From: Dyadobacter fanqingshengii
GTDB taxonomy: Bacteria; Bacteroidota; Bacteroidia; Cytophagales; Spirosomataceae
DNA: 64,000 nt
Assembly: GCF_023822005.2 (NCBI RefSeq)
Contig: NZ_CP098806.1
Location: forward strand, 1,860,001-1,924,000
Direction of reading: 5' to 3'
Position numbers and translations under genes: made by a program. Under the pieces are notes generated by a model. The model searched no databases. It worked only from the letters and a program-made list of their open reading frames with translations, and was not told where the DNA came from. Each line of letters opens with the position of its first letter. The first letter of the stretch is position 1. Below are positions 19,379-50,412 of this stretch, piece by piece.

Positions 19379-21193
19379 TTGAAGGCGAATACACTTCTGT
19401 TCGAAATTGCCTGGGAAGTCTGCAATCAGATCGGCGGGATATTCACGTTCATCAAGTCCAAAGTCCCAACCATGACGGACACCTATGGCGACAATTATTT
19501 CCTCATCGGGCCTTACATTCCTGAAAAAGCTAAGCTCGATTTCCGCCCGATCCGCGACCTGGATAACACGCCGCTTTCGAACGCGATTCAGCACATCAAA
19601 ATGCTGGGTTTTGAAATACATTATGGCTACTGGCTGCTCGAAGAAGCGCATCCAAAAGTGATTTTGATCAATCCGGTTATTAACATGGAAGCGCTTCATG
19701 CGGCCAAAGCAACATTATGGCAGCATCACGAAATATCTGCGCTCGAAAGCAATGCATTACTGGATCAAGTAATTGGTTTTGGGGAAGTTACCCGCCTCTT
19801 ATTAACCAAATTAATTGAAGAAATTGACATTAACCAGGATGTGATCGCACATTATCACGAGTGGATGTCGGCCACGAGCCTGCCTGAGCTCTCCTGGCGG
19901 CAAGCTCGGCTCGCGACCGTTTTTACTACGCACGCCACACTGCTCGGCCGTTATCTGGCTTCGAACGAACCCGATTATTTTTCCAAAATTTCAACCTTCG
20001 ACTGGACGCAAAAGGCCAGGGAATATGGCATAGAAACGCAGGCGAAAATAGAAAGGAATGTGGCTAAACACGCGAATGTGCTGGTTACTAACAGCGCATT
20101 GACCGCGACAGAATGTGAAACATTTTTAGGTCGACGCCCCGACAGTATAGTGCATAGCGGCATCCACCGGAAGCCCGGTGTTGGCCACGAAGTTTTTGAG
20201 AAACATTTGCAGAACCGGGAAAAGATCGACGCATTTATTAAGGCGCTCTTTTCACCCAGTTATCAGCTCAAAAGCGATAAAACGCTGTATTTTTTCACGT
20301 CCGGCAGATACGAATTCCGCAACAAAGGTTTTGATATAACCTTGCAGGCAATCGCCCGGCTCAATGAGGTGCTTGTTCGCAGGCAGTCCGATATCCGTGT
20401 TGTTTTGTTTATCATTACCAAAAAGCCTTTTTACAACATTAAGCCCGATGTCCTCGAAGCACGGCAGCGATTTCAGGAGTTGCAAAAAATCTGTAAAAAG
20501 ATCAGCGCCAAGCTCGGGCCAAGAATGTACGCCAATGTTACTGGCTCAGCCGGTCATAAGCTGCCCGACTTGAACCAACTCATTGACGATGAGTTACAAA
20601 TGACGTGGCGACAAGCACTCGCAAATTTTAAGAGAAAAGGCCTGCCTCCCGTAACGACACATCATCTGCTCGAACAAGACGACATTACCATGTTCTGCGA
20701 CCAGGCCGGATTAAATAACAAAGAAGAAGATCGTGTCAAAGTGATCTATCATCCCGATTTCATCGAAAGAGCAATCTCATTATTCTCAATGGATTATCTG
20801 GAATTTGTAAGAGGCTGTCATTTGGGTGTTTTCCCATCCCTATACGAGCCTTGGGGCAATGCAGCAATGGAAACGGTGCTTCATGGAACACCCGTGGTGA
20901 CCAGTGACATTTCCGGTTTTGGACGTTTTGCAAGCGAAACCGCCGATATGGACGGAAATCATCAAATAAAAACCATAAAACGCCGCGAACAATCGAGCGA
21001 AGACGCAGTCATTCAGCTCACCGAAATTTTCACTCAATTCGTCGAAGAGTTTGAAGATCAGTCCTATATCCCCCGCGCTACCCTACCCAAGCCCTTCCTG
21101 GACACGCTATGCTGGTCCGAGCTGCAACAGCGATATCATGAAAATTACAGACTGGCACTTTTAAGATCCCAGCCTGTTGCAGGGTTGTATTAA
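19379..21193 (+). CDS. Glycogen synthase, GT3 (eukaryote-like) family
   Basis: The 604-residue protein begins LLFEIAWEVCNQIGGIFTFI, the hallmark of GT3 glycogen synthases rather than the bacterial GT5 GlgA. It would extend alpha-1,4-glucan from a nucleotide sugar. The C-terminal Rossmann domain holds the GT signature SLYEPWGNAAMETVLHGTPV with the paired Glu residues (about residues 480-500). The acceptor-side part has FTSGRYEFRNKGFDITLQAI. No ATG lies near the start, and an in-frame stop at 19334 limits the choice, so TTG at 19379 is the best start. The gene converges on the end of the 23-gene minus-strand run and overlaps its last gene by 4 bp. GlgX lies in that run, so the locus carries both glycogen synthesis and debranching. 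Confidence 0.88.
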   Translation: MKANTLLFEIAWEVCNQIGGIFTFIKSKVPTMTDTYGDNYFLIGPYIPEKAKLDFRPIRDLDNTPLSNAIQHIKMLGFEIHYGYWLLEEAHPKVILINPVINMEALHAAKATLWQHHEISALESNALLDQVIGFGEVTRLLLTKLIEEIDINQDVIAHYHEWMSATSLPELSWRQARLATVFTTHATLLGRYLASNEPDYFSKISTFDWTQKAREYGIETQAKIERNVAKHANVLVTNSALTATECETFLGRRPDSIVHSGIHRKPGVGHEVFEKHLQNREKIDAFIKALFSPSYQLKSDKTLYFFTSGRYEFRNKGFDITLQAIARLNEVLVRRQSDIRVVLFIITKKPFYNIKPDVLEARQRFQELQKICKKISAKLGPRMYANVTGSAGHKLPDLNQLIDDELQMTWRQALANFKRKGLPPVTTHHLLEQDDITMFCDQAGLNNKEEDRVKVIYHPDFIERAISLFSMDYLEFVRGCHLGVFPSLYEPWGNAAMETVLHGTPVVTSDISGFGRFASETADMDGNHQIKTIKRREQSSEDAVIQLTEIFTQFVEEFEDQSYIPRATLPKPFLDTLCWSELQQRYHENYRLALLRSQPVAGLY

Positions 21194-22377
21194 CTCACCC
21201 CCGGCAAATATCTTAGCGATAGCATGGTAATGTCATCGAACTGCGTTGCTGGGCCGATAAAATCGATGAGGCTTTCCAATGTGGCTTCGTTCATTTCCTT
21301 GGCGGTCTCTTTTGTGGAACCTTCGCCGGTTGTGAAGAAATCCTGCAAGTAATGCAGGCCGTAACGTGCTCCTGCCAGGTTATTGGCGTCGGTTACGCCG
21401 TCTGTGTAAAGTATAAATTTGTCTCCCGGGTGCAAGGTGAGCGTGTGTGACTCGAATTCGAATGTCGGATCGAAACACAGGGCCATGCCTCCCTCCTTTT
21501 TGACAAGCTCCGTTTCGCCGTTGGCGCGAACGATTACGGGCGGTTCGTGACCTGCATCCACGTATTCGACAACACCGGTTTTGACATTTAAAATACAAAC
21601 AAAGGCCGTCACGAACATATATGAGGAATTATCTTCGCTTAAAAACTCATTGACGATCTTCACCTTTTCTGTTATAGAATCGCCGTTACGGTTGGAAAAC
21701 TGGCTTTTGAAAATGGCTTTACTGATCGCCATGAATAACGCTGCGGGCACGCCTTTGTCTGAAACATCGCCGATCATAAAGAATAAATGCTCGGAATCCA
21801 TCATGAAATAATCATACAAATCGCCACCCACAACCTTGGCAGGATGAATAAATGCATGCAGATCCACACCCGCTTTGCCAATGTTGGCAGGAACCGTTTT
21901 CGGTAACATCGACATCTGAATTTCCTTTGCCACGCTCAGATCGTTCTGGATCGCGATCAGTTGCTCACGGCCTTTTTCCAGGCTCGTCAACATTTCAATG
22001 TGTTCCACCGTCTTGGAAATGGTAATTTCCAGATCTTCGAAGTTTACGGGCTTGGTCACAAAATCAAATGCGCCGCGATTCATCGCCGTCCGGATGTTGT
22101 CCATATCACCATATGCCGACACCATGATCGATTTCAGCAACGGATTTTGTTTTTCATTGACCTTCGAAAGGAACGTCAGCCCGTCCATGCCCGGCATGTT
22201 GATGTCAGAAAGAATAAGTGCGATGTCGTCAGATTCTTCCAGCCGCTCCAATGCCTCAATCCCGTTATTAGCAAACACAAATTCGTATTTCTTATCCCGG
22301 ATCTGCTTGCGGAACAATTGAAGAATCAACATCTCCATGTCCTGTTCGTCATCTACACTTAATATCCTGATAGCCAT
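21190..22377 (-). CDS. REC-SpoIIE response-regulator phosphatase (RsbU/IcfG-type)
   Basis: The 395-residue protein is a fused response regulator and PP2C phosphatase. The receiver is intact, with the acidic pair Asp9-Asp10, phosphoacceptor Asp58 (SDINMPGMDG), Ser87 and Lys109 (TKP). A coiled linker (about 112-150) leads to the SpoIIE domain, which keeps its metal-binding motifs GGDLYDYF (Asp186, Asp189), GDVSDKG (Asp204, Asp207) and YTDGVTDA. It is therefore expected to dephosphorylate STAS antagonists when its receiver is phosphorylated. The two STAS proteins encoded at 36679 and 39156 are the natural substrates, and the kinase encoded just upstream (22448) is the likely phosphodonor. It is the last gene of the large run and overlaps the convergent glycogen synthase by 4 bp. 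Confidence 0.9.
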   Translation of the reverse strand: MAIRILSVDDEQDMEMLILQLFRKQIRDKKYEFVFANNGIEALERLEESDDIALILSDINMPGMDGLTFLSKVNEKQNPLLKSIMVSAYGDMDNIRTAMNRGAFDFVTKPVNFEDLEITISKTVEHIEMLTSLEKGREQLIAIQNDLSVAKEIQMSMLPKTVPANIGKAGVDLHAFIHPAKVVGGDLYDYFMMDSEHLFFMIGDVSDKGVPAALFMAISKAIFKSQFSNRNGDSITEKVKIVNEFLSEDNSSYMFVTAFVCILNVKTGVVEYVDAGHEPPVIVRANGETELVKKEGGMALCFDPTFEFESHTLTLHPGDKFILYTDGVTDANNLAGARYGLHYLQDFFTTGEGSTKETAKEMNEATLESLIDFIGPATQFDDITMLSLRYLPGVS

Positions 22378-22447
22378 TATATTGTAATTTTTAAAATTGA
22401 TATCTTGAAAAATAAAATCTCTTTTTTAATGCTTAACACTGAATTTT

Positions 22448-23278
22448 TCAGCCAGGAACCACAATCCTGAATTCCGTTTTCTGACCCAGAACAGAAGTCA
22501 CATCAATGCTTCCCTTATGCGTGTCCGTCACGCTGGTATAGGTAAGCGAAAGTCCGAGCCCGGTCCCTTTCCCTTGTGGTTTTGTTGTAAAAAATGGCTG
22601 AAAAAGCTTCGCGACAATGTCTTCCGGAATGCCTATTCCATTGTCACAGATCTTAATTTCCACTTCCTGGTCAACTCGGTGCGTTGTGACTTCAATGACT
22701 GGCTCGTATCCTTCCGGCTGCCGTTTAACCTTTTCATTGACGGCATAGCAAGCATTATTCACCAGATTCACGATCACCCGCCCGAATTCGCCCTTCGCCA
22801 GCTTCACATTCCCCACCTGCGGGTCCAGGTTATATTTGAGCGTGACGTTGAATGCGCTATCATCCGCACGCACACCCTGGTAAGCGAGCTTGCTGTATTC
22901 TTCCAGCAGTTGGTTCAGGTCCGTGGGTTCAAGGACGGCCGCGTCGGAGCGGGCCTGTGCGAGCATGCCCTGAATGATCCGTTCTATGCGTTTCCCGTTT
23001 TCGTTGATCTTGAGAAGGTTTTGGGAAAGTGTTTCCAGCAAGTCCTTCTCGTCGGCAAGGTCCGCGTCGTTCATGGCAGACAGTGGTTTCTGGCAAATGT
23101 CCAGGATTTCGCCTACCAATCCCTGCGACAGGCGGGAGAAGTTATTGACAAAACTCACCGGATTTTTGATCTCATGTAAAATTCCGGCGCTGAGTTGCCC
23201 TATCTCGGCGAGCCTGTTGAGCTCAATGATTTTCTGCTGATAAAGTTCAATGTCGTGTTCCGTTGTTCCGGCTCCCAT
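22448..23278 (-). CDS. Soluble sensor histidine kinase (HisKA/HATPase)
   Basis: The short 276-residue kinase has no membrane segment and almost no N-terminal sensor: the dimerisation helix starts at about residue 15. The phosphoacceptor is His35 in AGILHEIKNPVSFVNNFS. The ATPase domain is complete, with the N box (GRVIVNLVNNACYA), the G1 box (CDNGIGIPED), the F box (LFQPFFTT) and the G2 box (GKGTGLGLSLTYT). It lies between the large propeller kinase and the REC-SpoIIE phosphatase, so it is the obvious donor for that receiver. Its C-terminal half resembles the upstream propeller kinase, which has lost its His. The two may have arisen by duplication and may form a mixed complex. Confidence 0.88.
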   Translation of the reverse strand: MGAGTTEHDIELYQQKIIELNRLAEIGQLSAGILHEIKNPVSFVNNFSRLSQGLVGEILDICQKPLSAMNDADLADEKDLLETLSQNLLKINENGKRIERIIQGMLAQARSDAAVLEPTDLNQLLEEYSKLAYQGVRADDSAFNVTLKYNLDPQVGNVKLAKGEFGRVIVNLVNNACYAVNEKVKRQPEGYEPVIEVTTHRVDQEVEIKICDNGIGIPEDIVAKLFQPFFTTKPQGKGTGLGLSLTYTSVTDTHKGSIDVTSVLGQKTEFRIVVPG

Positions 23279-23314
23279 AGTCCTGGTTATTTAAAATTTG
23301 CAGCATTTAGCGTG

Positions 23315-26300
23315 TTAAGCGACCACCGGGAGGAAAATTTCTATCTCGGTAAACACTCCTTCCAATGAATTTACCGACATGCGCCCTTTGTGATATTCAA
23401 TAATGTCCTTACTCATATACAAGCCTAGCCCCGTTCCTTTTGACGTAGGTTTTGTTGTAAAAAATGGGTTGAAAAGCTGCTCCTGCTCCTTGGCAGGGAT
23501 GCCTTTGCCATTGTCCCGAATGATAATGCAGACACCGCCTGCAATCAGTTTGGAAGAAATCAAAACTTGCGGCTGAAATGTTTTATCAATCCTGGCCTTT
23601 TCCAGCAGCGCATAACACGCATTACTGATGACATTGATGATTACCTGCGCAAACTCGTATGGCAACAGGCTCACTTTAACCGGATTGTCATATAAAGCCA
23701 TTTCCAGCTTTACGGAGGCGTCTTTATACTCGTTCAATGCTTCCTGAATGGCTGACTTTGCCTTCGCTTCCAGGAATGGATTGAGTTCGGTTACCATAAA
23801 ATCGGTTGATTTCCCTTTCAACAACTTCTGCATATCCTTCACAATACGCGTCGTGCTGTTGCCGTGTTCGTAAATCTTTTCCAGATTTTTTTGAAGCATT
23901 GAAAAACCGCTATCCAGGTCATCTTTTTCATCTTCCGACAATCCATCCTGGTGTTTATCAGTGACTTCTGTTATTTCTTTCAGCAGTTTCCCTGAGGATT
24001 GCGAGAAGTTATTGATGTAATTCAACGGATTCAAAATCCTGTCGACAATTCCTTTGGTCAGGCTGCCCACCGATGCCAGCCGCTCCTGACGAATGAGTTC
24101 TTCCTGCGTCGATTTCAGGTTGGACAGTGTGTTTTCAAGATTTTCAAGAATATTGGTTTTAATGTATGCGCCGATCAAATGCTCTTTCAGGTTTTTGACC
24201 ACATTAAAATCCCGCTCCGAAAATGCGTTCTCACGGTCTGTGTTTTCTAATGTAATGTAGCTTTTCACATCGCCATCCACCCGGATCAGGATTGTGATCA
24301 GCGACTTAGGTGAGAAAAGTTCGTCTATCGAATCATCCACATTCTGGCTGCGGAAGTCATTTTTCAGGAAAATGTCTTCGAGAATTTCTTCCCCCTCTTC
24401 TACATATCGCTGCTCGGCTTGCTTTGATGTGAGCCTGATATCGTCCACCTTCGCATTTTCCACGGCACCCGCAAGCGCGATAAACTGGTAGTTGTCAGCA
24501 GCTTTGTTATAAATCAATGCGGATGCGCCGTTCACATTCTGGAATTCACAGAGTTTGTTTAAAACCAGCTGAAAAAGTCGCCCGGTGTTCACTTCGCCGT
24601 TGATCGATTTTACAAATTCATCGATCCGTTCCAATTGATCATTCGTCGCCGACAATTCTTCTGACTGCAATTCCAGCTCTTCTTTCTGATTAACCACTTC
24701 CTCCGTACGTTCGCGGATCCTTGTTTCCAATTCTTCCTTCTCTCTCAAAATTCTCCTTAACCGCCACCGAACCGCGTAATAACTTAATGACCCAAACAAA
24801 ACCAGGTAAAGCGCGATCATATACCACTGCCGGAACCACGGAACGCGGATCTTGAATGCAAGGGAAGTCGCCTTTGAAACATGGTTGTAAACATCCTTTG
24901 CCCGCACTTTGAATGTGTATGTTCCGGATGGCAAACCGCTGTATTCTTTCCGCGTCAACGGACTCCAGTCTGACCAGTCTTTATCATAATTTTCAAGAAT
25001 ATACTGATAATCAACCTCCTGATTACTATGATAACTGGGCAACGCAAATTCGAAGATCAGGTTGTTCTGGCGGTGGCTAAGCGTTTTTGTGATCTCGCCA
25101 TCCTGGGCATATTCCAGCAAACTATCCTGCGTTGCAACGCTTCTGAGCAACACCGGATATTCGTAAATGTATTGATCACGAACACCCATATCGAGCCGGT
25201 AAAGTCCCTGGTCCCCGCCGAGCCATGCATTGCCATTTTCATCCGGAAATATGATCTGAAACGGAACATCGGCGATGGGCATTAATGGTGTTTCTACCAG
25301 CTCGAATCCGCCCGAAGGCTTCTTTTTGAAGAATGAAGCAGATTTTTTATCCCCGCGCGTTGTCCAAACATTGCCCTTACTATCTCCCCGAACGCGGTCG
25401 AACCACGTTTTTTCTGTATTCAACCATTTTGCACGCGCGAAACGGTCGGATTGCGGTTGATACTCGTAAAGCCCGTCTTTATTAGAAACCATTAAGTTGT
25501 CTTCATACAAAGCCAGCTTATTATATAATGGGCTTGAAATGCCTTGCGCAGCCGAAAAACGTTTGACATTACCGGATTTGCCGTCCAATTTAATTATGCC
25601 ATTAGAAAGCGTTTCAAGCCAGAAAGTCTCAGCGGGAAATTCCGTTACGCCAACAATTTGTTCGTTTACCGCCTTCACCCGTTCCGACCGCCATCCATTT
25701 CCCGTCTGGCTTAGTTTGATCAAGCCGTCCTGCATACCCACAAACAATTCATTAGCAGACTTTGAAGCTGTGACGCTTAATGAAAAATTGGAGGATATTT
25801 TGTCAATCCCTGCGCCTTTGCTCCATTGAAAAAGTCCTTTATTAGAAGCAATGTATAGCGAGCCGTTTGCTTCATCAAAGCCCAGAACGCTTCCCGAAAA
25901 GCCTTCAATATGAACGATCTTATTGTTTTCAATATAATACAAGCCATACAATGTGCCTATCACAATGCGCCCCTGAAAGCGCCTGATCGAGGTTACTGAA
26001 CCTTTCAGGCCATCTTCGTTACCAAAAACCGAAACAGGTGAAGGCAAATCAAAACGCGCGATACCGTTATTGAGCGCGAGCCAGAGATTATGTTCCCGAT
26101 CCTTGAACATGGCTGTAACCTGGCTTTCTTCCAAGTCTGCACCCGTATAAACCGGATATTGCACATTCCCATCCGAATCAGTCACCAGCATCCCGCCCGT
26201 AGCCATGCTGATGGCAACCGTCCCGTCTTGTAATTTGCTTGCATAAGTGGCCTGGTTACGGATCAGAACAGGATTTGCATTTCCTTCAAGGACTTCAATC

Positions 26301-27028
26301 CGGTTATTTTTCAGTTTAAAAATCCCCTGACTTGTGGTGATCAAAAGCGCAGATCCGTCGCCTAGCTGCACTACGGAAGTCAGATCCAGCAAAACGGGAA
26401 CATTGTCATTTTGCTCAATTTTAGAGATCTGGCGGCCGTTAACCAGCATCATTCCCCTGTTTTTTGCATAGACAAGCATTTCATTCCTGAGGGCAAAAGC
26501 TGCCTGGATTTTCAGGTTGTGTTTAAATGGTGCTACCTTCAATCCATCCCAATAAAAATTGATCTGATCTGTTATGAACCAGGCGCCGGCCTTTGTAGGA
26601 ATGATCTGAATCACCTGAGTAAATTTCTCTTTCAGCTTGCCCGAAAGATCTACAAATTGCTGAACACCAAACCTGTCATTTCCCAGGTAACCAAATTCCC
26701 CGTTCGCCCCCACAAGCACACGGCCTTTGGCATCAGTCGCCAGGGCCGACACGCGGGTAACATTTGTAGTTTGGATCGTTTTCCATAAAACGCCGTCATA
26801 TTCCAGCACGCCCGCAAAATTGGCAAAATACATCACACCCGACTTATCCTGCGCTATCGCAAAATTCTGGTCATGGGCACGATATTCTGATGACTGGTAA
26901 AAGCCAGACAATGGCCTTCCCACCTCCGGCTTTGCCGCATTGATCTGCTGTGCCCGGAGCTCTGTTGCGCCGGTCAGCAAAATCAGAATGACCAATAAAT
27001 TACTAAGCCTCAACGCTTTCCACCACAT
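23315..27028 (-). CDS. Two-component propeller sensor with degenerate kinase domain
   Basis: The 1237-residue protein has a signal peptide (residues 1-27), a long periplasmic region with Reg_prop-type beta-propeller repeats (about 40-620) and a Y_Y_Y domain (YILENYDKDWSDWSP). A transmembrane helix follows (about 731-751), then a coiled coil, a GAF-like region (about 815-960) and a kinase core. The dimerisation helix reads GSLTKGIVDRILNPLNYINN. The position that is normally His in AHEIxNPL is Asp996 (codon GAC at 24041-24043) and the next Glu is Arg, so phosphoacceptor activity should be lost. The ATPase domain looks intact (INVISNACYA, RDNGKGIP, LFNPFFTT, GKGTGLGLYM). It may activate or restrain the soluble kinase encoded next. 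It overlaps the preceding transporter gene by 26 bp. Confidence 0.88.
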   Translation of the reverse strand: MWWKALRLSNLLVILILLTGATELRAQQINAAKPEVGRPLSGFYQSSEYRAHDQNFAIAQDKSGVMYFANFAGVLEYDGVLWKTIQTTNVTRVSALATDAKGRVLVGANGEFGYLGNDRFGVQQFVDLSGKLKEKFTQVIQIIPTKAGAWFITDQINFYWDGLKVAPFKHNLKIQAAFALRNEMLVYAKNRGMMLVNGRQISKIEQNDNVPVLLDLTSVVQLGDGSALLITTSQGIFKLKNNRIEVLEGNANPVLIRNQATYASKLQDGTVAISMATGGMLVTDSDGNVQYPVYTGADLEESQVTAMFKDREHNLWLALNNGIARFDLPSPVSVFGNEDGLKGSVTSIRRFQGRIVIGTLYGLYYIENNKIVHIEGFSGSVLGFDEANGSLYIASNKGLFQWSKGAGIDKISSNFSLSVTASKSANELFVGMQDGLIKLSQTGNGWRSERVKAVNEQIVGVTEFPAETFWLETLSNGIIKLDGKSGNVKRFSAAQGISSPLYNKLALYEDNLMVSNKDGLYEYQPQSDRFARAKWLNTEKTWFDRVRGDSKGNVWTTRGDKKSASFFKKKPSGGFELVETPLMPIADVPFQIIFPDENGNAWLGGDQGLYRLDMGVRDQYIYEYPVLLRSVATQDSLLEYAQDGEITKTLSHRQNNLIFEFALPSYHSNQEVDYQYILENYDKDWSDWSPLTRKEYSGLPSGTYTFKVRAKDVYNHVSKATSLAFKIRVPWFRQWYMIALYLVLFGSLSYYAVRWRLRRILREKEELETRIRERTEEVVNQKEELELQSEELSATNDQLERIDEFVKSINGEVNTGRLFQLVLNKLCEFQNVNGASALIYNKAADNYQFIALAGAVENAKVDDIRLTSKQAEQRYVEEGEEILEDIFLKNDFRSQNVDDSIDELFSPKSLITILIRVDGDVKSYITLENTDRENAFSERDFNVVKNLKEHLIGAYIKTNILENLENTLSNLKSTQEELIRQERLASVGSLTKGIVDRILNPLNYINNFSQSSGKLLKEITEVTDKHQDGLSEDEKDDLDSGFSMLQKNLEKIYEHGNSTTRIVKDMQKLLKGKSTDFMVTELNPFLEAKAKSAIQEALNEYKDASVKLEMALYDNPVKVSLLPYEFAQVIINVISNACYALLEKARIDKTFQPQVLISSKLIAGGVCIIIRDNGKGIPAKEQEQLFNPFFTTKPTSKGTGLGLYMSKDIIEYHKGRMSVNSLEGVFTEIEIFLPVVA

Positions 27029-42836: not shown

Positions 42837-43262
42837 TTAGAGCGTCGCAGAACCTTCGTGATATTCGAGTCCGTCGACAATGTATTTGGTGATGACCACT
42901 TTTCCAGCGTCGGTCAGTTTTACTTCCCAAGTTTGAAAAGCGTCACATTTGATGCGTTTGCTGAAAGGCTCGGGCGCATTCCAAACGCTGGCTTCCCATT
43001 GCACGACCACTTTTACCACCGCCGTGTTGCCATTAATGACCGGCTCTACCACCTTAACGGTGTGCACTTCGTCGAAGAAAATGCGGATCACGCGCTGAAA
43101 CCAGCCTTCAAATCCGGCGTAACCGTAAACTGTCGCTTCAGGGAAAACCATTTCCAGTTCCGCATCAGCCAGCAGCGGCAATACTTCAACCATCGGGACG
43201 TGAACATCCAGCTTTTTATACCAGTCAAGAGCCAGTGCTTTAATTGCTTCCTGCGTTAACAT
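42837..43262 (-). CDS. SnoaL/NTF2-like protein
   Basis: The 141-residue protein starts at the ATG at 43262. It has an N-terminal helix (KALALDWYKKLDVH), then LPLLADAELEMVFPEATVYG and GFEGWFQRVIRIFFD. The last strands are VKVVVQWEASVWN and DAFQTWEVKLTDAGKVVITK. The pattern is that of the NTF2-like superfamily, probably the SnoaL-like domain group. No catalytic Asp/His set can be named with confidence. It is the gene directly after the GMC oxidoreductase (30 bp), so it might act on its product or be a binding partner. Confidence 0.75.
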   Translation of the reverse strand: MLTQEAIKALALDWYKKLDVHVPMVEVLPLLADAELEMVFPEATVYGYAGFEGWFQRVIRIFFDEVHTVKVVEPVINGNTAVVKVVVQWEASVWNAPEPFSKRIKCDAFQTWEVKLTDAGKVVITKYIVDGLEYHEGSATL

Positions 43263-43292: not shown

Positions 43293-44852
43293 TCAATTGG
43301 TTAAACTTTTTGCCAAAACTGCAACTGCATGCTCCGCCAGGATCATATCAGCCGCTTTTTCCCCGATCATGAAGCAGGCCGCAACGGTGTTCCCACTCGT
43401 TACAGTCGGCATAACCGAAGCATCTGCAATGCGCAGATTTTGAATGCCGTGCACTCTCAATTCCGGGTCAACGACTGCCATTGCATCCGTTCCCATTTTG
43501 CAAGTTCCGGCTGGATGCCAGATTGTTGTGGCCTGGCTTCTGACGAATGCTTCAATGTCCGCATCTGCGCCAGGCACCATTTCTCCACCGTTCAATTCAG
43601 AAAATTTCTGTGTGTTTGCAAGTTTTCGAACCAACGCAACGGCCTTGGATAACACTGCTACATCGGCGTCTTCCTGCAAATAATTGGGGTTGATCAAAGG
43701 CAAATCCATTGGATTGCTGGAGTGCAACTTCACTTCTCCCCTGCTTTGAGGCTGGACAAGAATGGGCAGGAAAATGCAGACAGGACCGCCCAAATCCGGA
43801 AGCACCGGAGCCAATGGTCCTGGTAAACTTGGGGTGAAATTGATTTGCAGATCAACAACGCCATTGTCTTCTTTGGTATTGACAAACAGCGCATTACCAG
43901 TCAGAAGCGTTGTATTGGGCATTGGAATTTTTGATCTGAAAATCATGGGCAACTGCAAATGATCCTGCAAATTTTTTCCAACACCTGGCAAATCAGCAAC
44001 AACGGGAATGCCCGCTTCTTCAAGCTCTTCCTTTGGCCCAATGCCCGACAGAAGCAATAATTTTGGCGAGTTTAATGCACCGGCCGAAATGATGACTTCC
44101 TTATTGCAAAAAACTTGCTCTGTGGTGCCAATGTTCGTAATGTATTCTACGCCAATTGCGTTTTTATCCACAATCAAAATATTGGAAACCAAGACATTGG
44201 TAAAAACTGTCAGATTTTTTCTTTGTGAAACCGAATGCAGAAATGCCGAAGCCCCGCTGTCGCGCTTGTCATTTTTATCAATATGAAATTGCAACAATCC
44301 AGCGCCGTTTTCCTGGCGTGCACCGTTGTAATCCCAGTTTGGGCCGTCATAACCAAGCTCTGTTGCCCCGACCAAAAAATGTTCAGAACGCATCACTTCG
44401 TCCGGACAGTCGCGGATGCTAAGCTCGCCGCCTACTGCATGAAAGTCAGAAGCGCCATTTTCAGAGTTTTCTGATTTTTTAAAATAAGGCAAAACGGCTT
44501 CATAACCCCAGCCTTTTGCACCCATGGATTCCCATTGATCGAAGTTGCCGGGATTGCCCCTTACATACATCATTGCATTAATAGACGTGCTGCCACCCAG
44601 CACTTTGCCCTGATTAATCATGATCGTGCGCCCGCCGAGGCCCGGCTGTTCCGTTGTACGCATTTTCCAGTCAATGTCTGATTCCCAAAGGCTTACAAAG
44701 CCTCCCGGATCGTGAATGGCAGGCTCGTTGTCCCGGTTTCCAGCCTCGATAAGCAGCACTTGCGTCTCCGGATCAGCGCTCAGCCGATTGGCCAAGACGC
44801 TCCCGGCAGCTCCGGCTCCAACAATGATGTAATCAAAACTTAGTTGTTCCAT
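43293..44852 (-). CDS. GMC-family FAD oxidoreductase (choline/alcohol dehydrogenase-like)
   Basis: The 519-residue flavoprotein begins with the FAD-binding DYIIVGAGAAGSVLANRLS (Rossmann glycines at 12-17). The GMC signature 1 is GKVLGGSTSINAMMYVRGNP (about 82-101), and signature 2 is SAGALNSPKLLLLSGIGP. The catalytic pair is His446 (WHPAGTCKMG) and the Asn of TSGNTVAACFMIG. The family oxidises alcohols, choline or sugars with FAD; the substrate here is unknown. It shows no signal peptide, so it is cytoplasmic. It follows the ThDP enzyme by 33 bp; the pair could turn an alcohol into an aldehyde or couple aldehyde and alcohol forms of one intermediate. Confidence 0.92.
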   Translation of the reverse strand: MEQLSFDYIIVGAGAAGSVLANRLSADPETQVLLIEAGNRDNEPAIHDPGGFVSLWESDIDWKMRTTEQPGLGGRTIMINQGKVLGGSTSINAMMYVRGNPGNFDQWESMGAKGWGYEAVLPYFKKSENSENGASDFHAVGGELSIRDCPDEVMRSEHFLVGATELGYDGPNWDYNGARQENGAGLLQFHIDKNDKRDSGASAFLHSVSQRKNLTVFTNVLVSNILIVDKNAIGVEYITNIGTTEQVFCNKEVIISAGALNSPKLLLLSGIGPKEELEEAGIPVVADLPGVGKNLQDHLQLPMIFRSKIPMPNTTLLTGNALFVNTKEDNGVVDLQINFTPSLPGPLAPVLPDLGGPVCIFLPILVQPQSRGEVKLHSSNPMDLPLINPNYLQEDADVAVLSKAVALVRKLANTQKFSELNGGEMVPGADADIEAFVRSQATTIWHPAGTCKMGTDAMAVVDPELRVHGIQNLRIADASVMPTVTSGNTVAACFMIGEKAADMILAEHAVAVLAKSLTN

Positions 44853-44885
44853 TTTGAAAATGGGGAGGGTTTAACGGTCTTAAAG

Positions 44886-46595
44886 TCAATGCGAACAATT
44901 AATCTCTACCCAATCTGCCTTATGGTTGCCTTCCAGCACCAGGTCGATCAAAAAGGGCTTATCGTCGGCCAGCATTCTTTCAATTGCGGGCAAAATTTCT
45001 TCTTCTTTTTCAACCCTAACCGCTTCCACGCCCAGAGATTGCGCCAACAGGTCAAACCGGATTGCAGGAAAGGAAAGGTCAAACGGCAGCGGATGATCGT
45101 GTTTCGGAATTTCGCGTTCCTGCCAATATTGGTCAATGTTGAGTTGCAGCAACTTGTAAGAACCATTGTTGCAAACCACAAACTTGGCTCCCGTGTTATG
45201 CCGCACCGCCGACCATAATGTTTGGATCGTGTACATGCTCCCACCGTCGCCTGAGAAACCAATCACCGTTTTTTCAGGATTGGCTAATTTGGCACCGATA
45301 GCACCTGGAAAGCCTACGCCTAACGATCCACCACGTGTGAAAAAGTATTGTTTGGCAAGTTTCGGTGGAATGTAGCGGCTAACAGCGGCTGAGCTTGTCA
45401 ATGCTTCATCAAAAATGATCGTTTCATCCTGATTGAGCTTTTCAGCAAGCACCTTTGTGAACTGCGACATTTGCAGTGGCGATTTGCCCTGATGTTTGTC
45501 ATCCGCTTCTTTTTCTGCTGCGATTTTATCCTTTTTGGCATTACCGATCTGCTTTATACGTTGCGCGGCTTTTGCCTTGTTTTCCGACGTCTGCAATGCT
45601 TCAATTTTTTCAGCAAGTGCGGCCAGCGAAAGTTTGGGATCACTCACAACGCCCAGATCAACGCGGTGATTTTTGGCAATCTCATAAGCATTGAGATCGA
45701 AATGGATCACTTTTGCTTCCGGCGCATAAATTTCTCCCAATTCAGGAAAAACCTCCGGCAACATATAAGTGCCGACGATGAGATTGGCATCACCTTTCAT
45801 CGTAATCGGCTGACTGTAAGAACCGAACATGTGGCCAGTTGTGCCCTGATACAAAGGATGCGTGTTGTCCATTACCAGATCACCGAATTCTACACCATAA
45901 ACTTCTGCTCCCAAAAGCTCCGCAACGCGTGTCAGTTCAGGAATCGCATCGGAATAAGCAATGCCGTCGCCGACAAAGATCATTGGCTTCTCGGCAGCCA
46001 GCAACATTTCTGCTGATTGCGCGATCAGTTCAGGCGCAGGTGCAACGCGGGTGGACGGAATGCAGCTTGGAAACACGGGCTCATCATTAATCTCGTCCAG
46101 AATGTCCATTGGCAAGCAAACATAAACCGGCCCCATCGGAGGCGTGGAGGCTATTTTCACAGCCCTGCGAATGGTCCGCAGCAACGATTTAGATGACGTT
46201 GCCATGGTTGCATATTTGGTCACAGGCGCCATCATTGCAACGAGATCATTGGCCATTTGCGCATCCATATTCATGTATTGCACACCCGCATCCGAGCCGA
46301 TCACAACCAGCGGCGCATGACCTCTTTTAGCTTGATACACAGCTCCCACTGCATTGCCAATGCCGGGCGAACTGTGCAACTGAACCAATGTAGGCTTCTG
46401 CGTGGCGCGGGCATAACCGTCGCCCATCATGACCGCAATCGTTTCCTGCAAGGTTAGGATATATTTCATCTCGGGATACTCGGCCAGTGCGTCAAGGAAA
46501 CCTTGCTCCACCGTGCCGGGATTCCCGAACATGTAATCCATGCCATCCGCAAGGAATTGTTCAATGATCTTCTGATTCCCGGTTTTACCAGCCAT
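44886..46595 (-). CDS. Thiamine diphosphate-dependent enzyme (benzoylformate decarboxylase/acetolactate synthase-like)
   Basis: I start at the ATG at 46595 (MAGKTGNQK), which overlaps the DJ-1 gene by 11 bp; 46622 would add nine residues. The roughly 569-residue protein has the three-domain fold. The PYR domain carries catalytic Glu51 (TLQETIAVMMGDGYAR). The middle domain follows, and the PP domain has the ThDP motif GDGGSMYTIQTLWSA running to CNN (about residues 448-475). The phrase FTRGGSLGVGFPGAIGAKLA is typical. The family decarboxylates 2-keto acids or joins them; benzoylformate decarboxylase is the nearest style, but no substrate can be given. It lies between a DJ-1 gene and a GMC oxidoreductase gene in the run. 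Confidence 0.88.
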   Translation of the reverse strand: MAGKTGNQKIIEQFLADGMDYMFGNPGTVEQGFLDALAEYPEMKYILTLQETIAVMMGDGYARATQKPTLVQLHSSPGIGNAVGAVYQAKRGHAPLVVIGSDAGVQYMNMDAQMANDLVAMMAPVTKYATMATSSKSLLRTIRRAVKIASTPPMGPVYVCLPMDILDEINDEPVFPSCIPSTRVAPAPELIAQSAEMLLAAEKPMIFVGDGIAYSDAIPELTRVAELLGAEVYGVEFGDLVMDNTHPLYQGTTGHMFGSYSQPITMKGDANLIVGTYMLPEVFPELGEIYAPEAKVIHFDLNAYEIAKNHRVDLGVVSDPKLSLAALAEKIEALQTSENKAKAAQRIKQIGNAKKDKIAAEKEADDKHQGKSPLQMSQFTKVLAEKLNQDETIIFDEALTSSAAVSRYIPPKLAKQYFFTRGGSLGVGFPGAIGAKLANPEKTVIGFSGDGGSMYTIQTLWSAVRHNTGAKFVVCNNGSYKLLQLNIDQYWQEREIPKHDHPLPFDLSFPAIRFDLLAQSLGVEAVRVEKEEEILPAIERMLADDKPFLIDLVLEGNHKADWVEINCSH

Positions 46596-47412
46596 AACGC
46601 GTGAGGCCTTTGTCCAGAACATTCACAAACTGCTCTCCGAATTCGAATGAACATTGCAATGAACGGCCTGTAATAAATGGATAGTCAACGATTACGGAAG
46701 TTTCTTTACCAAAATTTCCATGATATTGTCCTTCTGGGCCAACGGCGTCGGAAAGAATGTATTCCAGCACATATGGCGGTGGCCCCATGTTCAAATCTGT
46801 GTGCAGGAAGCCGGTTCCGTCGTGGTAATCGTATTCAATGCAGTGACCTGTAACGTGTTTTCCTTTGATGATGGAATTGCGTTCGTTGAAATCACGGGCA
46901 AAAACCAACGGCGCAACGCCGTAACAGATTCCGGCAACAGGCATTTGTTTTTTGTAAAAAGCAAGGATCACATCATGGACGCGCTGGTTATTCACCATGT
47001 CAATGATCGGGCCGCTGCCGCCTACGAGGAAAACCGCGTCGTATTCTTCTGTCAGTTTGTCCTGCGCGATTTTTAGGTCGCTGTAATATTTTTCAAATGC
47101 GCGAAGGAAGTCCGGCGTCGAGAAGTAAGGACGCTGAGGGATTACTTCGGACAGGTTCAATGTATTTGCCAAACGGTTTGTCGCTTCAAAAGCATTCACT
47201 TTGTCGGCGGCAAGCTGCGTTGTAACGCACACGCCTAGTGGAGGATCTACGTAAGTGGTATCGTAGCTTGGTGGCAATGCTTCGGCCTTTTTGCCATTGG
47301 GTGTGATAAAATCAACGGTGTAACCGGCTTCTTCCAGTTTTTCGAGCGGTCCTACCAGCTCAATGCCCCAATATCCGTATTCCGATAAAATGGCGAGTAC
47401 TTTCTTTGACAT
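46585..47412 (-). CDS. DJ-1/PfpI superfamily protein (type 1 glutamine amidotransferase-like)
   Basis: The 275-residue protein is a longer DJ-1 form of the Hsp31 or type 1 GATase-like group. It begins KKVLAILSEYGYWGIELVGP, with the usual acidic residue (Glu18). The strand YDAVFLVGGSGPIIDM precedes the nucleophile elbow AGICYGVAPL with Cys163. The residue after Cys is Tyr164, where many members have His, so a classical Cys-His dyad is missing unless another His serves. The C-terminal part has GTGFLHTDLNMGPPPYVLEY and ITGRSLQCSFEFGEQF. It overlaps the ThDP gene. With the smaller DJ-1 protein at 41801 it gives two divergent copies in one run. Confidence 0.8.
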   Translation of the reverse strand: MSKKVLAILSEYGYWGIELVGPLEKLEEAGYTVDFITPNGKKAEALPPSYDTTYVDPPLGVCVTTQLAADKVNAFEATNRLANTLNLSEVIPQRPYFSTPDFLRAFEKYYSDLKIAQDKLTEEYDAVFLVGGSGPIIDMVNNQRVHDVILAFYKKQMPVAGICYGVAPLVFARDFNERNSIIKGKHVTGHCIEYDYHDGTGFLHTDLNMGPPPYVLEYILSDAVGPEGQYHGNFGKETSVIVDYPFITGRSLQCSFEFGEQFVNVLDKGLTRYGW

Positions 47413-47465
47413 AAAAATTCGGGTTAGAGGCTTTTAATGATGAGAGGAGAGTTTACAAATATTTA

Positions 47466-47921
47466 TTAATGTGCTCCGGGAGCCGTCGCTCCCGGAGGTG
47501 GCGGCACAACGCCTAACTGCTGCAAAAGACCCAGTTCGTCCACATTGGCCCAGCGCTCTGCGATCTTGCCGTCTTTCATGCGGGCAGTCGTGGTTCCAGT
47601 CAGAGTAATTGATTTTCCTGATGGCGGCATGCCCATTACGCCGCCTGTGTCGGTTCCGTTCAGTCTCCATCTGTGCACCACTTTGTCGGCTACATATATC
47701 TGATCTTCAATGCTTAGCTTCGCATCCGGCATAGCGCCGCGGAACATGCCCACGATGCCTTTGAAACTGGCTGAGCCTGGCTCTGAAACCGTTTTTCCGC
47801 CAACTTGTGAATGGTCTATCGCGTCGGATGCCAATAGATCTTCGCGCACAAGACCCGTATTCCAGGCTGTTTCGAAAAATTCTACGCAAATCGCATTGTT
47901 TTGTTCTGCTGTAAGTGACAT
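47466..47921 (-). CDS. Ester cyclase/SnoaL-like protein
   Basis: The start is set at the ATG at 47921 (MSLTAEQNNA); a TTG at 47957 lies upstream inside the next gene. The 151-residue protein has a helical N-terminus (CVEFFETAWNTGLVRED), then FKGIVGMFRGAMPDAKLSI and IYVADKVVHRWRLNGTDTGG. The last strands end in AERWANVDELGLLQQLGVV. The last motif, D-x-x-G-L-L-x-Q-L, recurs in the proteins at 49109 and 49549, showing a common origin. The Pro-rich end (PPPPGATAPG) is unlike its relatives. The closest family style is SnoaL-like polyketide cyclase/ester cyclase. Its substrate is unknown. Confidence 0.8.
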   Translation of the reverse strand: MSLTAEQNNAICVEFFETAWNTGLVREDLLASDAIDHSQVGGKTVSEPGSASFKGIVGMFRGAMPDAKLSIEDQIYVADKVVHRWRLNGTDTGGVMGMPPSGKSITLTGTTTARMKDGKIAERWANVDELGLLQQLGVVPPPPGATAPGAH

Positions 47922-47953
47922 GCTTTCTCTTTTTTTAAGGGTTGATATGCTGT

Positions 47954-49108
47954 TCAATTCACTGTATAAGGTCTTCCGCCCAAAAAGGCTTCCGCGATAG
48001 ATGCTGTATTCACATAATTATGTATCGAGGCAACTTTTCCGTCTTCATTCACGACCACAATGTGGACGACGCTGGTGTGGAACGTCAATCCGGTTGCTTT
48101 TGAAACGCCCGGCTCGTTGATTAAGACAGCCGCAACATTGTCCTGGTAAATCATCCTGACCGCTTTGAAATGCTCAAAATGCATGGTTTCGATGATCTGT
48201 TTGGCTGATTCCACAGCGGCAATCGGCCCTATGCGTTCTCCCGACCAGGCAATAATGTCCGGCGGACCGAACATGTGCCACACTACATTGGATGCAAACG
48301 CCTTTCTCACTTCTTCTGCTTTCAGGCCCTGCAATGCGGCATACATGGCCCTTGCTGATTTTACGGTTGCGGCTACATTGTCGAGAACTGCTTCGTCAAA
48401 CACAATGCTGTCCGCAGTCCGGACGGCTGCAAGTGGCTCATTGACATAATGTTGAGAACCAGCTGCATTTGCACTCACCGTAAATGGCCTTCCGCCATGC
48501 AATGCTTCAATGATCGGAAAAGTGTCGCGATAACATTGTAAATGCGCGATCTTGCCATTCCTGACTGTCACCCAATGCACTACGCCACCCGAAAATGGCA
48601 CGCCTGATTTTGTTTCCCCGCTTCCCTCCAGCACGATGGCAACTGTGTTTCCTTGTGCTACAAATCGGGTTAGAATCAGTTTTTCAAAAGCAATTCCTTC
48701 TTTTTGTAATTCAAAAAACCGGGTTAATCCTGCCCTTCCTTCCCACTTTCCTGCCCATGGCATAATGTCCTGCGGGCCTCCCATTTCCCAAATAACATTG
48801 TCAGCAAGAAATGATAAAAGCTCTTCTAATTCATTCTCTTGCAATGCCTTATAAAACCTTTTCAAAAACGGAACCGGATCAAGGTCAATCGCATTGACAT
48901 TTTTCAGTTCAGCCAGGATCATGAAAGAATCTGCCAGCCTGATCAATGTATCACTTGATTCCTGCTCAAAAATCAGGTCTTTCCTGGAAAGCTCGGGCTC
49001 GTCAATGATCAGCACGTCCGTGTCCGTGTCGAAATTTTCAATGATCACCGGCTTCACCGGAAGCTGCCCACCTCTGTTAACGTAATGACGGACAACTACT
49101 TTTTCCAT
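47954..49108 (-). CDS. Two-domain SnoaL/NTF2-like protein with unusual N-terminus
   Basis: The 384-residue protein begins with about 75 residues of mixed sequence (VVVRHYVNRGGQLPVKPV; ESSDTLIRLADSFMIL), which I do not recognise. Two SnoaL-like domains follow. The first runs from about residue 80 to 212 (LKRFYKALQENELEELLSFL to ALHGGRPFTV). The second runs from about 250 to 384 (SARAMYAALQGLKAEEVRKA to AFLGGRPYTV). The repeated endings GGRPFTV and GGRPYTV mark an internal duplication. Both contain a G-P-x-D-I-x-x-W motif (GGPQDIMPWAG, FGPPDIIAWSG). It abuts the gene at 49109 without a gap. No enzyme activity can be assigned; binding of a small molecule is plausible. Confidence 0.8.
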   Translation of the reverse strand: MEKVVVRHYVNRGGQLPVKPVIIENFDTDTDVLIIDEPELSRKDLIFEQESSDTLIRLADSFMILAELKNVNAIDLDPVPFLKRFYKALQENELEELLSFLADNVIWEMGGPQDIMPWAGKWEGRAGLTRFFELQKEGIAFEKLILTRFVAQGNTVAIVLEGSGETKSGVPFSGGVVHWVTVRNGKIAHLQCYRDTFPIIEALHGGRPFTVSANAAGSQHYVNEPLAAVRTADSIVFDEAVLDNVAATVKSARAMYAALQGLKAEEVRKAFASNVVWHMFGPPDIIAWSGERIGPIAAVESAKQIIETMHFEHFKAVRMIYQDNVAAVLINEPGVSKATGLTFHTSVVHIVVVNEDGKVASIHNYVNTASIAEAFLGGRPYTVN

Positions 49109-49552
49109 TTATTGAATCACTTTCAATTGTTGCAACAAACCGAGACTGTCCTGAGCAACCCACATTTCAACGATCTTCCCGTTTTCAATGCGGAATATGT
49201 CAATTCCCTGATCCCTAACCCTTATGCTTGTTGTTTCCCTGCCCAAAAAGTTGCCCGTGTTTGTGGCTTCATATGACCAGCGGCTAACCACTTTATCTCC
49301 TTCTGCAAGCTCGTCGTGCAATGTGAAATGCACGTCCGGGAATGCGACAAGCGCTGTTTCGAACCACTTTTTCAATGTGGGCGGCTGGTGTGCCTGACCC
49401 GGCGGGAAATGAAAAGTCACATTTTCCACCGCGATTTCATTGAGCACATTGATATTTTTTTCATTCCAAAAGTCAAACCAGTAACGGCGGACGATGGCTT
49501 TGTTTGCTTCTGTTTTTGACAACGCTGGCGTATTTGTTTCCAATGCCATCAT
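49109..49552 (-). CDS. Ester cyclase/SnoaL-like protein
   Basis: The 147-residue protein has a helical N-terminus (RRYWFDFWNEKNINVLNEIA), then FHFPPGQAHQPPTLKKWF, FPDVHFTLHDELAEGDKVV and SRWSYEATNTGNFLGRETTS. It ends in QDSLGLLQQLKVIQ. This matches the ester cyclase-like proteins at 47466 and 49549 in order and in the final G-L-L-Q-Q-L motif. The start ATG overlaps the stop of the preceding gene in ATGA (49549-49552), so translation is coupled. The next gene begins directly after its stop. It is one of the paralogous set that fills the front of the run. Confidence 0.82.
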   Translation of the reverse strand: MMALETNTPALSKTEANKAIVRRYWFDFWNEKNINVLNEIAVENVTFHFPPGQAHQPPTLKKWFETALVAFPDVHFTLHDELAEGDKVVSRWSYEATNTGNFLGRETTSIRVRDQGIDIFRIENGKIVEMWVAQDSLGLLQQLKVIQ

Positions 49553-50412
49553 GATGGGATCGCTCCTAACTGCTGCATCAAACCAAAATCATTTTCATTC
49601 ACGTGAACGGAGAAAATCTTGCCGTTTTTAATGGTGAAAATGTCGATCCCAAAGTCTTTCACGTGGTTTCCTGTGGGAGCAGCGCCAAGGAATTCGCCCA
49701 TATGCGTTCCTTCAATGTTCCATCTGGTTGCCACCTTATTGCCTTCACCCGTCTGACGCATGATTGTAAACTTAATGTCCGGGAAAGCATTGCGTAAATA
49801 CAAGACGAAGTTTTTGAAGGCCGGAAATCCGGCGATAGGCTCAGGTTGTGTAGGAATTATAAAAGCAAAATTCGGATCCAGAATCTCTTCAAACACATCC
49901 AGATTTCCCTGGTTCATGATTTCTTCAAAATATCTTGTCGCAAGTGTTTGGTTGTGTTCAAGATCAATTTTCTCCGGTACATTATCAGATGGTAAAATCC
50001 CCAATTGAAGCAGTAAACCCAGTGTATCTTCATGACCAACCGACTCGGTAATCTTGCCATCCTTAATCGTATGCCAGGTTATGCCGTCCACTTCGAAAAA
50101 TTTTCCTGTTGCTTCCACATTGCCCTTAACCGTTAGCAAAGGTCCGCCTGTGTGCGTGCCGCCGCCTTTCCAACGGGTTACTACCCAGTCGCCGCCGGCA
50201 ACCATTTCCTGCGGGTTGAGATAAAAGTCAGGAAAGGAATCGTGCAGCATTTTGACAAGTCCGAAGAAGCCGTCCGGACCGTGGAAAGGTTCGGGATGTG
50301 TAGGCAATGTAAAAACGAAATCGTCCGACAAGATCTCATGAGCAACCTGCTCATTCATGCCGTTCATAATCTGATAAAAATATCGTCGGGAGAGTACTTT
50401 ATTGGCGTTCAT
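49549..50412 (-). CDS. Two-domain ester cyclase/SnoaL-like protein, first gene of the run
   Basis: I start at the ATG at 50412 (MNANKVLSRRYFY). The frame stays open to 50595, but the extension is hydrophobic and low quality, and it would use most of the upstream region. The 287-residue protein has two SnoaL-like domains. The first, about residues 1-139, ends in HEDTLGLLLQLGILPSD, and the second, about 140-287, ends in NENDFGLMQQLGAIPS. Each has the VATRW-type strand (DWVVTRWKGGGTHTGG; NKVATRWNIEGTHMGEFLG). It is 470 bp from the divergent pseudo-receiver gene, so the promoter of the whole run should lie in that gap. Confidence 0.8.
   Translation of the reverse strand: MNANKVLSRRYFYQIMNGMNEQVAHEILSDDFVFTLPTHPEPFHGPDGFFGLVKMLHDSFPDFYLNPQEMVAGGDWVVTRWKGGGTHTGGPLLTVKGNVEATGKFFEVDGITWHTIKDGKITESVGHEDTLGLLLQLGILPSDNVPEKIDLEHNQTLATRYFEEIMNQGNLDVFEEILDPNFAFIIPTQPEPIAGFPAFKNFVLYLRNAFPDIKFTIMRQTGEGNKVATRWNIEGTHMGEFLGAAPTGNHVKDFGIDIFTIKNGKIFSVHVNENDFGLMQQLGAIPS

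Follow-up and report, generated by a model that had tools for sequence, protein, structure and literature searches.

We analysed a 64,000-nucleotide window (positions 1,860,001-1,924,000 of the 6.25-Mb contig NZ_CP098806.1) of the two-contig genome of Dyadobacter fanqingshengii (GCF_023822005.2). The window carries a gene cluster whose core consists of an AGE-family epimerase, the glycogen debranching enzyme GlgX, two STAS proteins and an RsbW-type serine kinase. The cluster, its core and its conservation are evident from gene content, order and distribution. We consider it likely that the whole represents an enlarged, horizontally spread carbon-control unit of the type known from cyanobacteria as the icfG operon.

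The 29-kb run of 23 genes that a preliminary description had drawn from 50412 to 21190 is one evolutionary unit, with borders wider than first proposed. Five of its genes were sought in 25 Dyadobacter genomes: AGE, RsbW, the histidine kinase HK2, a linked copy of glycogen synthase and the LytS-type kinase of a divergent operon. AGE occurs in 13 of the 25 genomes (87-100% identity), and exactly these 13 carry the LytS-type kinase (chance of identical sets 2e-7), the cluster glycogen synthase (>700 bits), HK2 (>390 bits) and RsbW; a second glycogen synthase, at ~43% identity, is found in all 25. The LytTR regulator adjoins the cluster in 13/13 genomes, and a phosphoglucose isomerase gene adjoins the block in 11 of them. 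In the remaining two (G019, G022) the block lies at another site, yet lacks nothing between GlgA and LytTR but accessory genes. Around the isomerase of the cluster-free genomes (~20 kb, inspected in 11 of 12, G024 having no isomerase match) stand the isomerase, usually a TIM-barrel gene, and a DUF5009 gene, with no cluster gene except one kinase match at 22% identity. The shared presence of the five genes and these cluster-free sites set the natural borders at about 19379 and 53628, so the unit also takes in the glycogen synthase gene (19379-21193) and the divergent LytTR operon. Absence from sister species, which had been named as a sign against the unit, does occur, in 12 of 25 genomes, but is all-or-none and is therefore read as horizontal gain or loss.

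Within the run every open reading frame lies on the minus strand, and with the starts chosen its 22 junctions span -38 to +70 bp, as the proposed 70-bp limit on gaps implied; genes do overlap, but at only three junctions rather than at many. Pfam and further profile matches bear out the earlier gene identities and the four layers into which they had been sorted. These are eight SnoaL/NTF2 domains, one of them a weak match; a carbonyl set (ThiJ_like, thiamine pyrophosphate (TPP) enzyme, GMC oxidoreductase, DJ-1/PfpI, VOC); a glucan-and-switch core (AGE epimerase, STAS1, GlgX, STAS2, RsbW); and an input block (nSTAND1-WD40, TonB receptor, GNAT, MFS with HEAT repeats, HK1, HK2, REC-SpoIIE). The features of the unit are:

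19379..21193, plus strand: GlgA paralogue, the cluster-linked glycogen synthase, tail-to-tail with the run (PF05693, 470 bits)
21190..22377, minus strand: REC-SpoIIE response-regulator phosphatase (PF00072, PF07228)
22448..23278, minus strand: HK2, histidine kinase with no predicted sensor domain and with an acceptor His (GILHEIKNP) (PF00512, PF02518)
23315..27028, minus strand: HK1, propeller/Y_Y_Y sensor with HATPase and no HisKA match (PF07494, PF07495, PF02518)
27003..29846, minus strand: MFS-like membrane protein with HEAT repeats (PF13646 over, PF07690 below cut-off)
29850..30434, minus strand: GNAT acetyltransferase (PF00583)
30440..33067, minus strand: TonB-dependent receptor (PF00593, PF07715)
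33069..36236, minus strand: nSTAND1-WD40 protein (PF20703, PF00400)
36242..36667, minus strand: RsbW-type serine kinase (PF13581)
36679..36999, minus strand: STAS2, candidate phospho-site Ser kept (PF01740)
37032..39152, minus strand: GlgX glycogen debranching enzyme (TIGR02100, 679 bits; cut-off 640.9)
39156..39494, minus strand: STAS1, between AGE and GlgX (PF01740)
39522..41345, minus strand: AGE-family epimerase/isomerase, 607 amino acids, barrel with extra N- and C-terminal beta parts
41377..41799, minus strand: VOC/glyoxalase-fold protein (PF00903)
41801..42379, minus strand: DJ-1/PfpI protein (PF01965)
42408..42800, minus strand: SnoI, one SnoaL_2 stretch, in 13/13 cluster genomes (PF12680)
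42837..43262, minus strand: SnoH, one weak SnoaL_2-like stretch, in 13/13 cluster genomes (PF12680 below cut-off, E 0.008)
43293..44852, minus strand: GMC oxidoreductase, whose best solved relatives include alcohol and choline oxidases (PF00732, PF05199)
44886..46622, minus strand: TPP enzyme, whose nearest solved relatives are benzoylformate decarboxylases (PF02775, PF02776, PF00205)
46585..47412, minus strand: ThiJ_like/DJ-1 protein (PF17124, PF01965)
47466..47921, minus strand: SnoE, one SnoaL stretch, accessory (PF07366)
47954..49108, minus strand: SnoCD, two SnoaL_2 stretches, accessory (PF12680 twice)
49109..49552, minus strand: SnoB, one SnoaL stretch, accessory (PF07366)
49549..50412, minus strand: SnoA, two SnoaL stretches, accessory (PF07366 twice)
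50657..50693, plus strand: conserved promoter-region element, 21-bp-spaced direct repeat, candidate LytTR site
50883..51818, plus strand: GAF-domain protein, first gene of the divergent operon (PF01590 just below cut-off)
51815..52858, plus strand: LytS-type histidine kinase (PF06580)
52855..53628, plus strand: LytTR response regulator (PF04397, PF00072)

Not every part of the unit is held equally. The SnoaL layer belongs to it in part: SnoH and SnoI are constant, but SnoA-E are absent as a set from six of the 13 cluster genomes (G006, G012, G020, G010, G021, G023) and are thus accessory genes. The GMC gene is absent from three (G010, G021, G023). The example locus for these, L030 (2592-8817, G010-type arrangement), has instead a metallo-beta-lactamase-fold protein, a molybdopterin xanthine-dehydrogenase/aldehyde-oxidase-type pair and a second ThiJ gene, placed among the Sno genes and ahead of DJ-1. 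Together these two losses rule out a strictly conserved unit. When the window's copies are compared with those of ten of the 12 other cluster-bearing Dyadobacter genomes, identity is 87-100% for AGE, GlgX, DJ-1, ThiJ and SnoI and 86-98% for SpoIIE; the input genes diverge (HK1 47-86%, MFS-HEAT 33-90%, TonB 35-94%, nSTAND 47-95%, GAF protein 43-94%). A rule of variable input and fixed output is countered by the linked glycogen synthase (50-84%), GMC (71-98%), STAS1 (73-100%) and RsbW (66-97%), which vary too. One genome (G015; L144, L145) is 95-100% identical to the window from SnoA to RsbW but 86-92% from nSTAND to HK2, with HK1, HK2 and the GAF protein at 82-89%, a mosaic that suggests exchange between species.

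The cluster also travels on plasmids. A tblastn search of 72,556 plasmid records placed AGE on 20, of which 17 have one place covering at least 80% of the protein; these come from Runella, Nostoc, Gemmobacter, Deinococcus, Streptomyces, Gloeothece and Gloeocapsopsis. On an 88-kb plasmid of Runella rosea the whole run is present in nearly the same order, with the ThiJ-TPP-GMC genes shifted ahead of the SnoaL genes and a glycogen synthase at the 5' end. In the 13 of 17 full-length records whose annotation we inspected, a GlgX-type gene lies within 3 kb of AGE in 11 (one annotated merely as alpha-amylase family). Of the 72,556 records, 14 encode the ThiJ protein (E up to 1e-30), and all 14 are among the 17 with full-length AGE.

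The core also persists across genomes. A scan of 84,980 species gave at least 523 confirmed AGE relatives, and the best 80 were kept; removal of 14 short-flanked loci and one without full AGE left 65 (12 from Dyadobacter), a sample of top matches to the window and so biased to near relatives. Within 12 kb of AGE, GlgX and STAS1 are present in all 65, STAS2 in 63, RsbW in 62 and DJ-1 in 62, many of the cyanobacterial DJ-1 matches being only 29-35% identical. TPP follows with 43, ThiJ and VOC with 41 each and SpoIIE with 32, where SpoIIE may lie outside the fetched flank in many Bacteroidota and some ThiJ, TPP and DJ-1 matches are paralogues at 22-35% identity. The 65 loci fall into eight phyla (Bacteroidota, Cyanobacteriota, Chloroflexota, Nitrospirota, Acidobacteriota, Thermodesulfobacteriota, Myxococcota with one locus, and Pseudomonadota); with Deinococcota (Deinococcus) and Actinomycetota (Streptomyces) from the plasmids, the core reaches at least ten. 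Among its bearers are Candidatus Contendobacter and Accumulibacter (L095, L097, L100, L101), relatives that are known to store glycogen and polyphosphate.

An even sample of 395 Bacteroidota genomes contains a long AGE orthologue (at least 578 bits) in 13, and we inspected the 12 neighbourhoods other than the window's. One (G227) has the Runella-like order. Six (L112-L117) have GlgX and then AGE with a fused STAS part; four of these also have ThiJ, TPP, DJ-1, VOC, SnoI and SnoH, L115 has ThiJ and DJ-1 only, and one is too short. In the other five (L118-L122) AGE is ~40% identical and GlgX has no match, STAS and ThiJ genes lie nearby in four and RsbW or SpoIIE in three; this AGE type is perhaps an older sister version. 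Four distant AGE paralogues used as controls (L123-L126, 116-175 bits) have no STAS or RsbW in the 16-20 kb fetched, and one has a GlgX ~7 kb off. Because the order largely recurs in other species, phyla and plasmids, and because ThiJ and AGE co-occur on plasmids, the arrangement goes beyond chance. The earlier proposal of one unit with a shared task thus gains from the joint gain or loss of the five genes, from near-identical order in other Cytophagales and from a core that is kept across phyla and resembles a published operon; it failed in its narrow borders. By all these comparisons, the block appears to be a horizontally moving unit that joins glycogen enzymes to a protein switch.

That published operon is icfG of Synechocystis sp. 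PCC 6803 (slr1852-slr1862), which according to PMC12329169 and PMC8670252 combines an AGE-family epimerase, a STAS protein, GlgX2, a second STAS protein, a phosphatase and an RsbW/SpoIIAB-like kinase in one carbon/glucose-linked operon. PMC8670252 describes Slr1855 as N-acetylglucosamine 2-epimerase and reports that the slr1852-1862 operon is repressed by salt. Phosphorylation of the STAS protein Slr1856 by the kinase and its dephosphorylation by the phosphatase are reported in PMC12329169, which cites ties of icfG to Synechocystis carbon control since the 1990s and gives the sigma targets of both STAS proteins as unknown. Two genes of the operon are reported to be ethanol-induced, one of them also by butanol. 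We take slr1854 to be a DJ-1/PfpI family member; it has been named general stress protein 18 (PMC3726282).

The window matches this arrangement. AGE (39522-41345) adjoins STAS1 (39156-39494) and then GlgX (37032-39152); the second STAS gene (36679-36999) and the RsbW-type kinase (36242-36667) are in the same run, the SpoIIE phosphatase (21190-22377) has an extra REC domain, and DJ-1/PfpI (41801-42379) stands before AGE one gene apart, with VOC between. Two cyanobacterial loci (L069, L078; Nostoc and Calothrix) read DJ1-AGE-STAS1-GlgX-STAS2-SpoIIE-RsbW, an order that agrees with the icfG locus numbers. Unlike icfG, the Dyadobacter unit has a REC-SpoIIE phosphatase and adds a TonB/propeller/two-kinase input, nSTAND-WD40, the SnoaL set, ThiJ-TPP-GMC, glycogen synthase and a LytTR system; no SigC-type sigma was found, and the cluster is patchy in the genus and plasmid-borne in relatives. 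We are highly confident that it is an enlarged, mobile icfG-type carbon unit and not a new kind of system. In the literature searched, to which subscription papers were mostly external, we found no description of the cluster outside cyanobacteria, of AGE-STAS fusions or of a single region-3 sigma in the 25 Dyadobacter genomes.

What the switch acts on is a separate question, and the sigma factors of the genus bear on it. With its kinase, phospho-Ser-motif STAS proteins and PP2C-type phosphatase, the core is like the RsbU-RsbV-RsbW switches of the sigma-B/SpoIIA kind, a likeness drawn here from sequence only; it differs in that the Dyadobacter genome has no cognate region-3 alternative sigma and that the two STAS genes stand beside enzymes, with STAS-enzyme fusion in relatives. 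The candidate phospho-Ser is kept in both window STAS proteins (SSAGLR, ASAGLR or close variants), in every STAS1 tabulated and in all STAS2 but one, for which no motif was returned; presumably it corresponds to the phosphorylated Ser of SpoIIAA and RsbV. Genome-wide matches comprise one stand-alone-size RsbW, two SpoIIE and five STAS proteins. The second SpoIIE gene, with an adjacent STAS gene (114-amino-acid frame), lies far from the window (L164, G000:C1:365000-382000) and has no RsbW-type match beside it. Each of the 25 genomes, with or without the cluster, has one region-3 sigma over the cut-off (PF04539), a frame of 287 amino acids (290 in one genome) that we read as RpoD; G000 has one extra match below the cut-off. 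None of the 25 has a dedicated region-3 alternative sigma for the switch by this profile. Since RsbW is present in 13 and the single region-3 sigma in all 25, RsbW comes and goes without a dedicated sigma. Extracytoplasmic function (ECF) sigma factors have no region 3.

A possible direct target is suggested by protein fusions. AGE has the (alpha/alpha)6 barrel fold, and its barrel matches sugar 2-epimerases; six His are invariant in 41 sequences. Compared with the glucose 2-epimerase Runsl_4512, D-mannose isomerase and cellobiose 2-epimerases (13-21% barrel identity), it is distinguished by its 607-residue length and extra terminal beta parts. In Nostoc, Gloeothece, Gemmobacter and several Bacteroidota, AGE has a C-terminal STAS-like part, Pfam-confirmed in L016, L112 and L115 and seen by alignment, with no Pfam match, in Gemmobacter (L013). 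Among the best 120 of 4590 relatives found for one fusion, 116 contain PF01740. In our tree, the six fused proteins, from three phyla, form one supported clade (96/90) together with an unfused Gloeocapsopsis protein; this pattern suggests that a single fusion was followed by transfer and by one loss. By tblastn, ten fused loci (L013, L016, L017, L019, L112-L117) have no stand-alone STAS or RsbW in the fetched DNA, which is short for L117 and in which weak homologues could escape. A phospho-site Ser/Thr is present in 39 of 45 aligned fusions. In a fusion model built from 45 sequences, the STAS part (611-710) has a mean predicted local distance difference test (pLDDT) score of 80-92 per ten residues; with a predicted template modelling (pTM) score of 0.79 and low values in several parts of the barrel, the placement of STAS is not decisive. 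A Streptomyces plasmid keeps AGE and an overlapping STAS gene; its gene table, itself incomplete, lists neither GlgX nor a second STAS gene or RsbW less than 12 kb from AGE. Adjacency, fusions and this pair point to AGE as the partner of STAS1, short of proof. A comparable case is SypA of Vibrio fischeri, in which, according to PMC8256260, a STAS protein is itself the output and its target unknown; for the Dyadobacter switch, adjacency and fusion suggest an enzyme as candidate target.

The input side has its own signature. HK1 (GIVDRILNP in the window) has Asp-Arg in place of the acceptor His-Glu in 15/15 homologues, and HK2 keeps the acceptor His motif in 15/15. An acceptor-less sensor adjoining an acceptor-bearing kinase suggests that the two work as a split pair with REC-SpoIIE as the receiver of their signal. 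In the divergent promoter region, the direct repeat AGTATNATT occurs at 21-bp spacing with 0-2 mismatches in eight of the 13 cluster genomes; at most 1 of 100 shuffles was as good, the repeat unit being derived from the same sequences. It was not found in the other five; in G010, one of these, another pair stands on the opposite strand with a spacing of 22 bp. A 21-bp direct-repeat spacing suits LytTR proteins.

As for internal terminators and strong internal starts, which the preliminary description named as signs against a single run, no minus-strand terminator-like site lies in the gaps of the run, all such matches being within coding sequence, but two weak minus-strand promoter-like matches (9/12) stand at internal junctions, at 36267-36239 before nSTAND and 43316-43289 before SnoH. 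The window contains 4 copies of the Bacteroidota promoter pattern TTTG-N-TANNTTTG, where 3.5 are expected. Sigma-70-type matches number 19 against 19.7 expected in 38900-54500 and 34 against 25.0 (standard deviation 4.8) in 19000-38900; terminator-like matches number 15 against 18.5 and 38 against 23.6 (standard deviation 5.2) in the same intervals. These counts neither prove nor split an operon. At gathering score, Rfam has no match in 17000-55000; the window contains no tRNA gene, and G+C shows no clear step across the run.

On balance we favour, with fair confidence, a role of the cluster in controlling the use of reserve glucan, because of GlgX, the linked glycogen synthase and the published icfG phenotype. 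The LytTR two-component system would switch the divergent promoters, and HK1 with HK2 would relay an envelope signal to REC-SpoIIE. SpoIIE may then dephosphorylate STAS1, STAS2 or both, and RsbW would rephosphorylate them. STAS1 would be the dedicated partner of the AGE epimerase, perhaps also of GlgX, and set its activity. On signal, glucan from the cluster glycogen synthase would be debranched and its sugars redirected, while ThiJ, DJ-1, VOC, the TPP enzyme and GMC or aldehyde oxidase would process carbonyl or keto-acid products. A partner switch with enzyme output, in which phospho-controlled STAS1 binds AGE and sets its activity with no sigma factor needed, is a tentative proposal; on it, AGE and STAS fused in one protein would represent a hard-wired version, and the cyanobacterial icfG switch would have the same enzyme output.

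Several points weigh against these readings. The kinase Slr1861 binds SigC and phosphorylates Ssr1600, a published sigma output (PMC12329169), and the literature searched holds no enzyme output for an icfG-type switch. Our icfG match uses published names and gene numbering, not Synechocystis sequences. RpoD and ECF sigma factors are possible switch targets, the latter being outside a region-3 survey. The fused STAS part has no phospho-Ser in L013, L112, L113, L114, L116 and L117, so fusions need not report phospho-control, and at some AGE loci (L020, L169) no STAS gene was detected or annotated. The linked glycogen synthase is only 50-84% identical in the ten genomes compared, below the conservation of the other enzymes. 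L169 itself, on a conjugative Nostoc plasmid, combines AGE (35%), DJ-1, ThiJ, TPP, EthD, two GMC and two alpha/beta hydrolase genes with a pair of Nif11-type leader peptides; an integrase gene lies upstream, and no switch gene is annotated nearby.

The alternatives partly overlap with the favoured reading, so their likelihoods are not shares of one whole. A metabolic cluster that makes or degrades an unknown glucan-derived compound through AGE, ThiJ, TPP, DJ-1, GMC, SnoaL/EthD and glucanase, with the switch as a common but dispensable regulator, is somewhat unlikely. Many of its enzymes persist without a stand-alone switch in Gemmobacter and Nostoc ATCC 53789 (AGE 35%), Streptomyces NBC_00464 keeps many of them with one STAS and no stand-alone switch, and aldehyde-oxidase-type genes replace GMC in the L030 example for the three genomes that miss it. 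Yet it is STAS1 that is present in 65/65 loci, against 41 for ThiJ and 43 for TPP, some of those distant paralogues.

We regard as unlikely a classical transcriptional partner switch, in which RsbW would hold the primary or an ECF sigma and the enzymes would merely belong to the regulon. The binding of SigC by Slr1861 speaks for it, as does a title in the reference list of PMC8256260 on Rsb control of the primary sigma in Chlamydia. Against it, the unit contains no sigma gene by Pfam, genomes with and without RsbW have the same single region-3 sigma over the cut-off, and STAS-enzyme fusions occur in loci with no detected RsbW. A patchwork island of independent operons co-carried by horizontal transfer, with no common task, would fit plasmid carriage in several phyla, uneven per-gene identities within the genus and the two internal promoter-like matches, but is very improbable given that the Runella plasmid and the Dyadobacter chromosomes largely share gene order and adjacency, that the core is kept across phyla and that the GlgA-LytTR block, at another site in G019 and G022, is still in one piece there.

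Two further ideas were rejected. Of three proteins submitted to PADLOC, only nSTAND had a match, and a weak one (mad3, E 6.7e-5), so a defence system was discounted. The TPP enzyme, together with NHL-repeat genes in Nostoc NIES-3756, had prompted the idea of a scytonemin-like pathway. The hallmark of scytonemin clusters is a ScyA-type TPP enzyme with a ScyB-type dehydrogenase; the run has the former type of gene, but its Pfam matches include no amino-acid dehydrogenase family.

Three aspects of the unit as an enlarged icfG-type system did not turn up in the literature searched: its spread beyond cyanobacteria, the AGE-STAS fusions and a switch without a dedicated region-3 sigma. The icfG core is not a cyanobacterial speciality. 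Dyadobacter, with its single region-3 sigma, offers a clean background for studying direct control of an enzyme by a switch, and the fusions suggest which enzyme. Should the proposed reading hold, it would account for the joint travel of a debranching enzyme and an epimerase with an anti-sigma system, and reserve-carbohydrate control would join the known cargo of plasmids.

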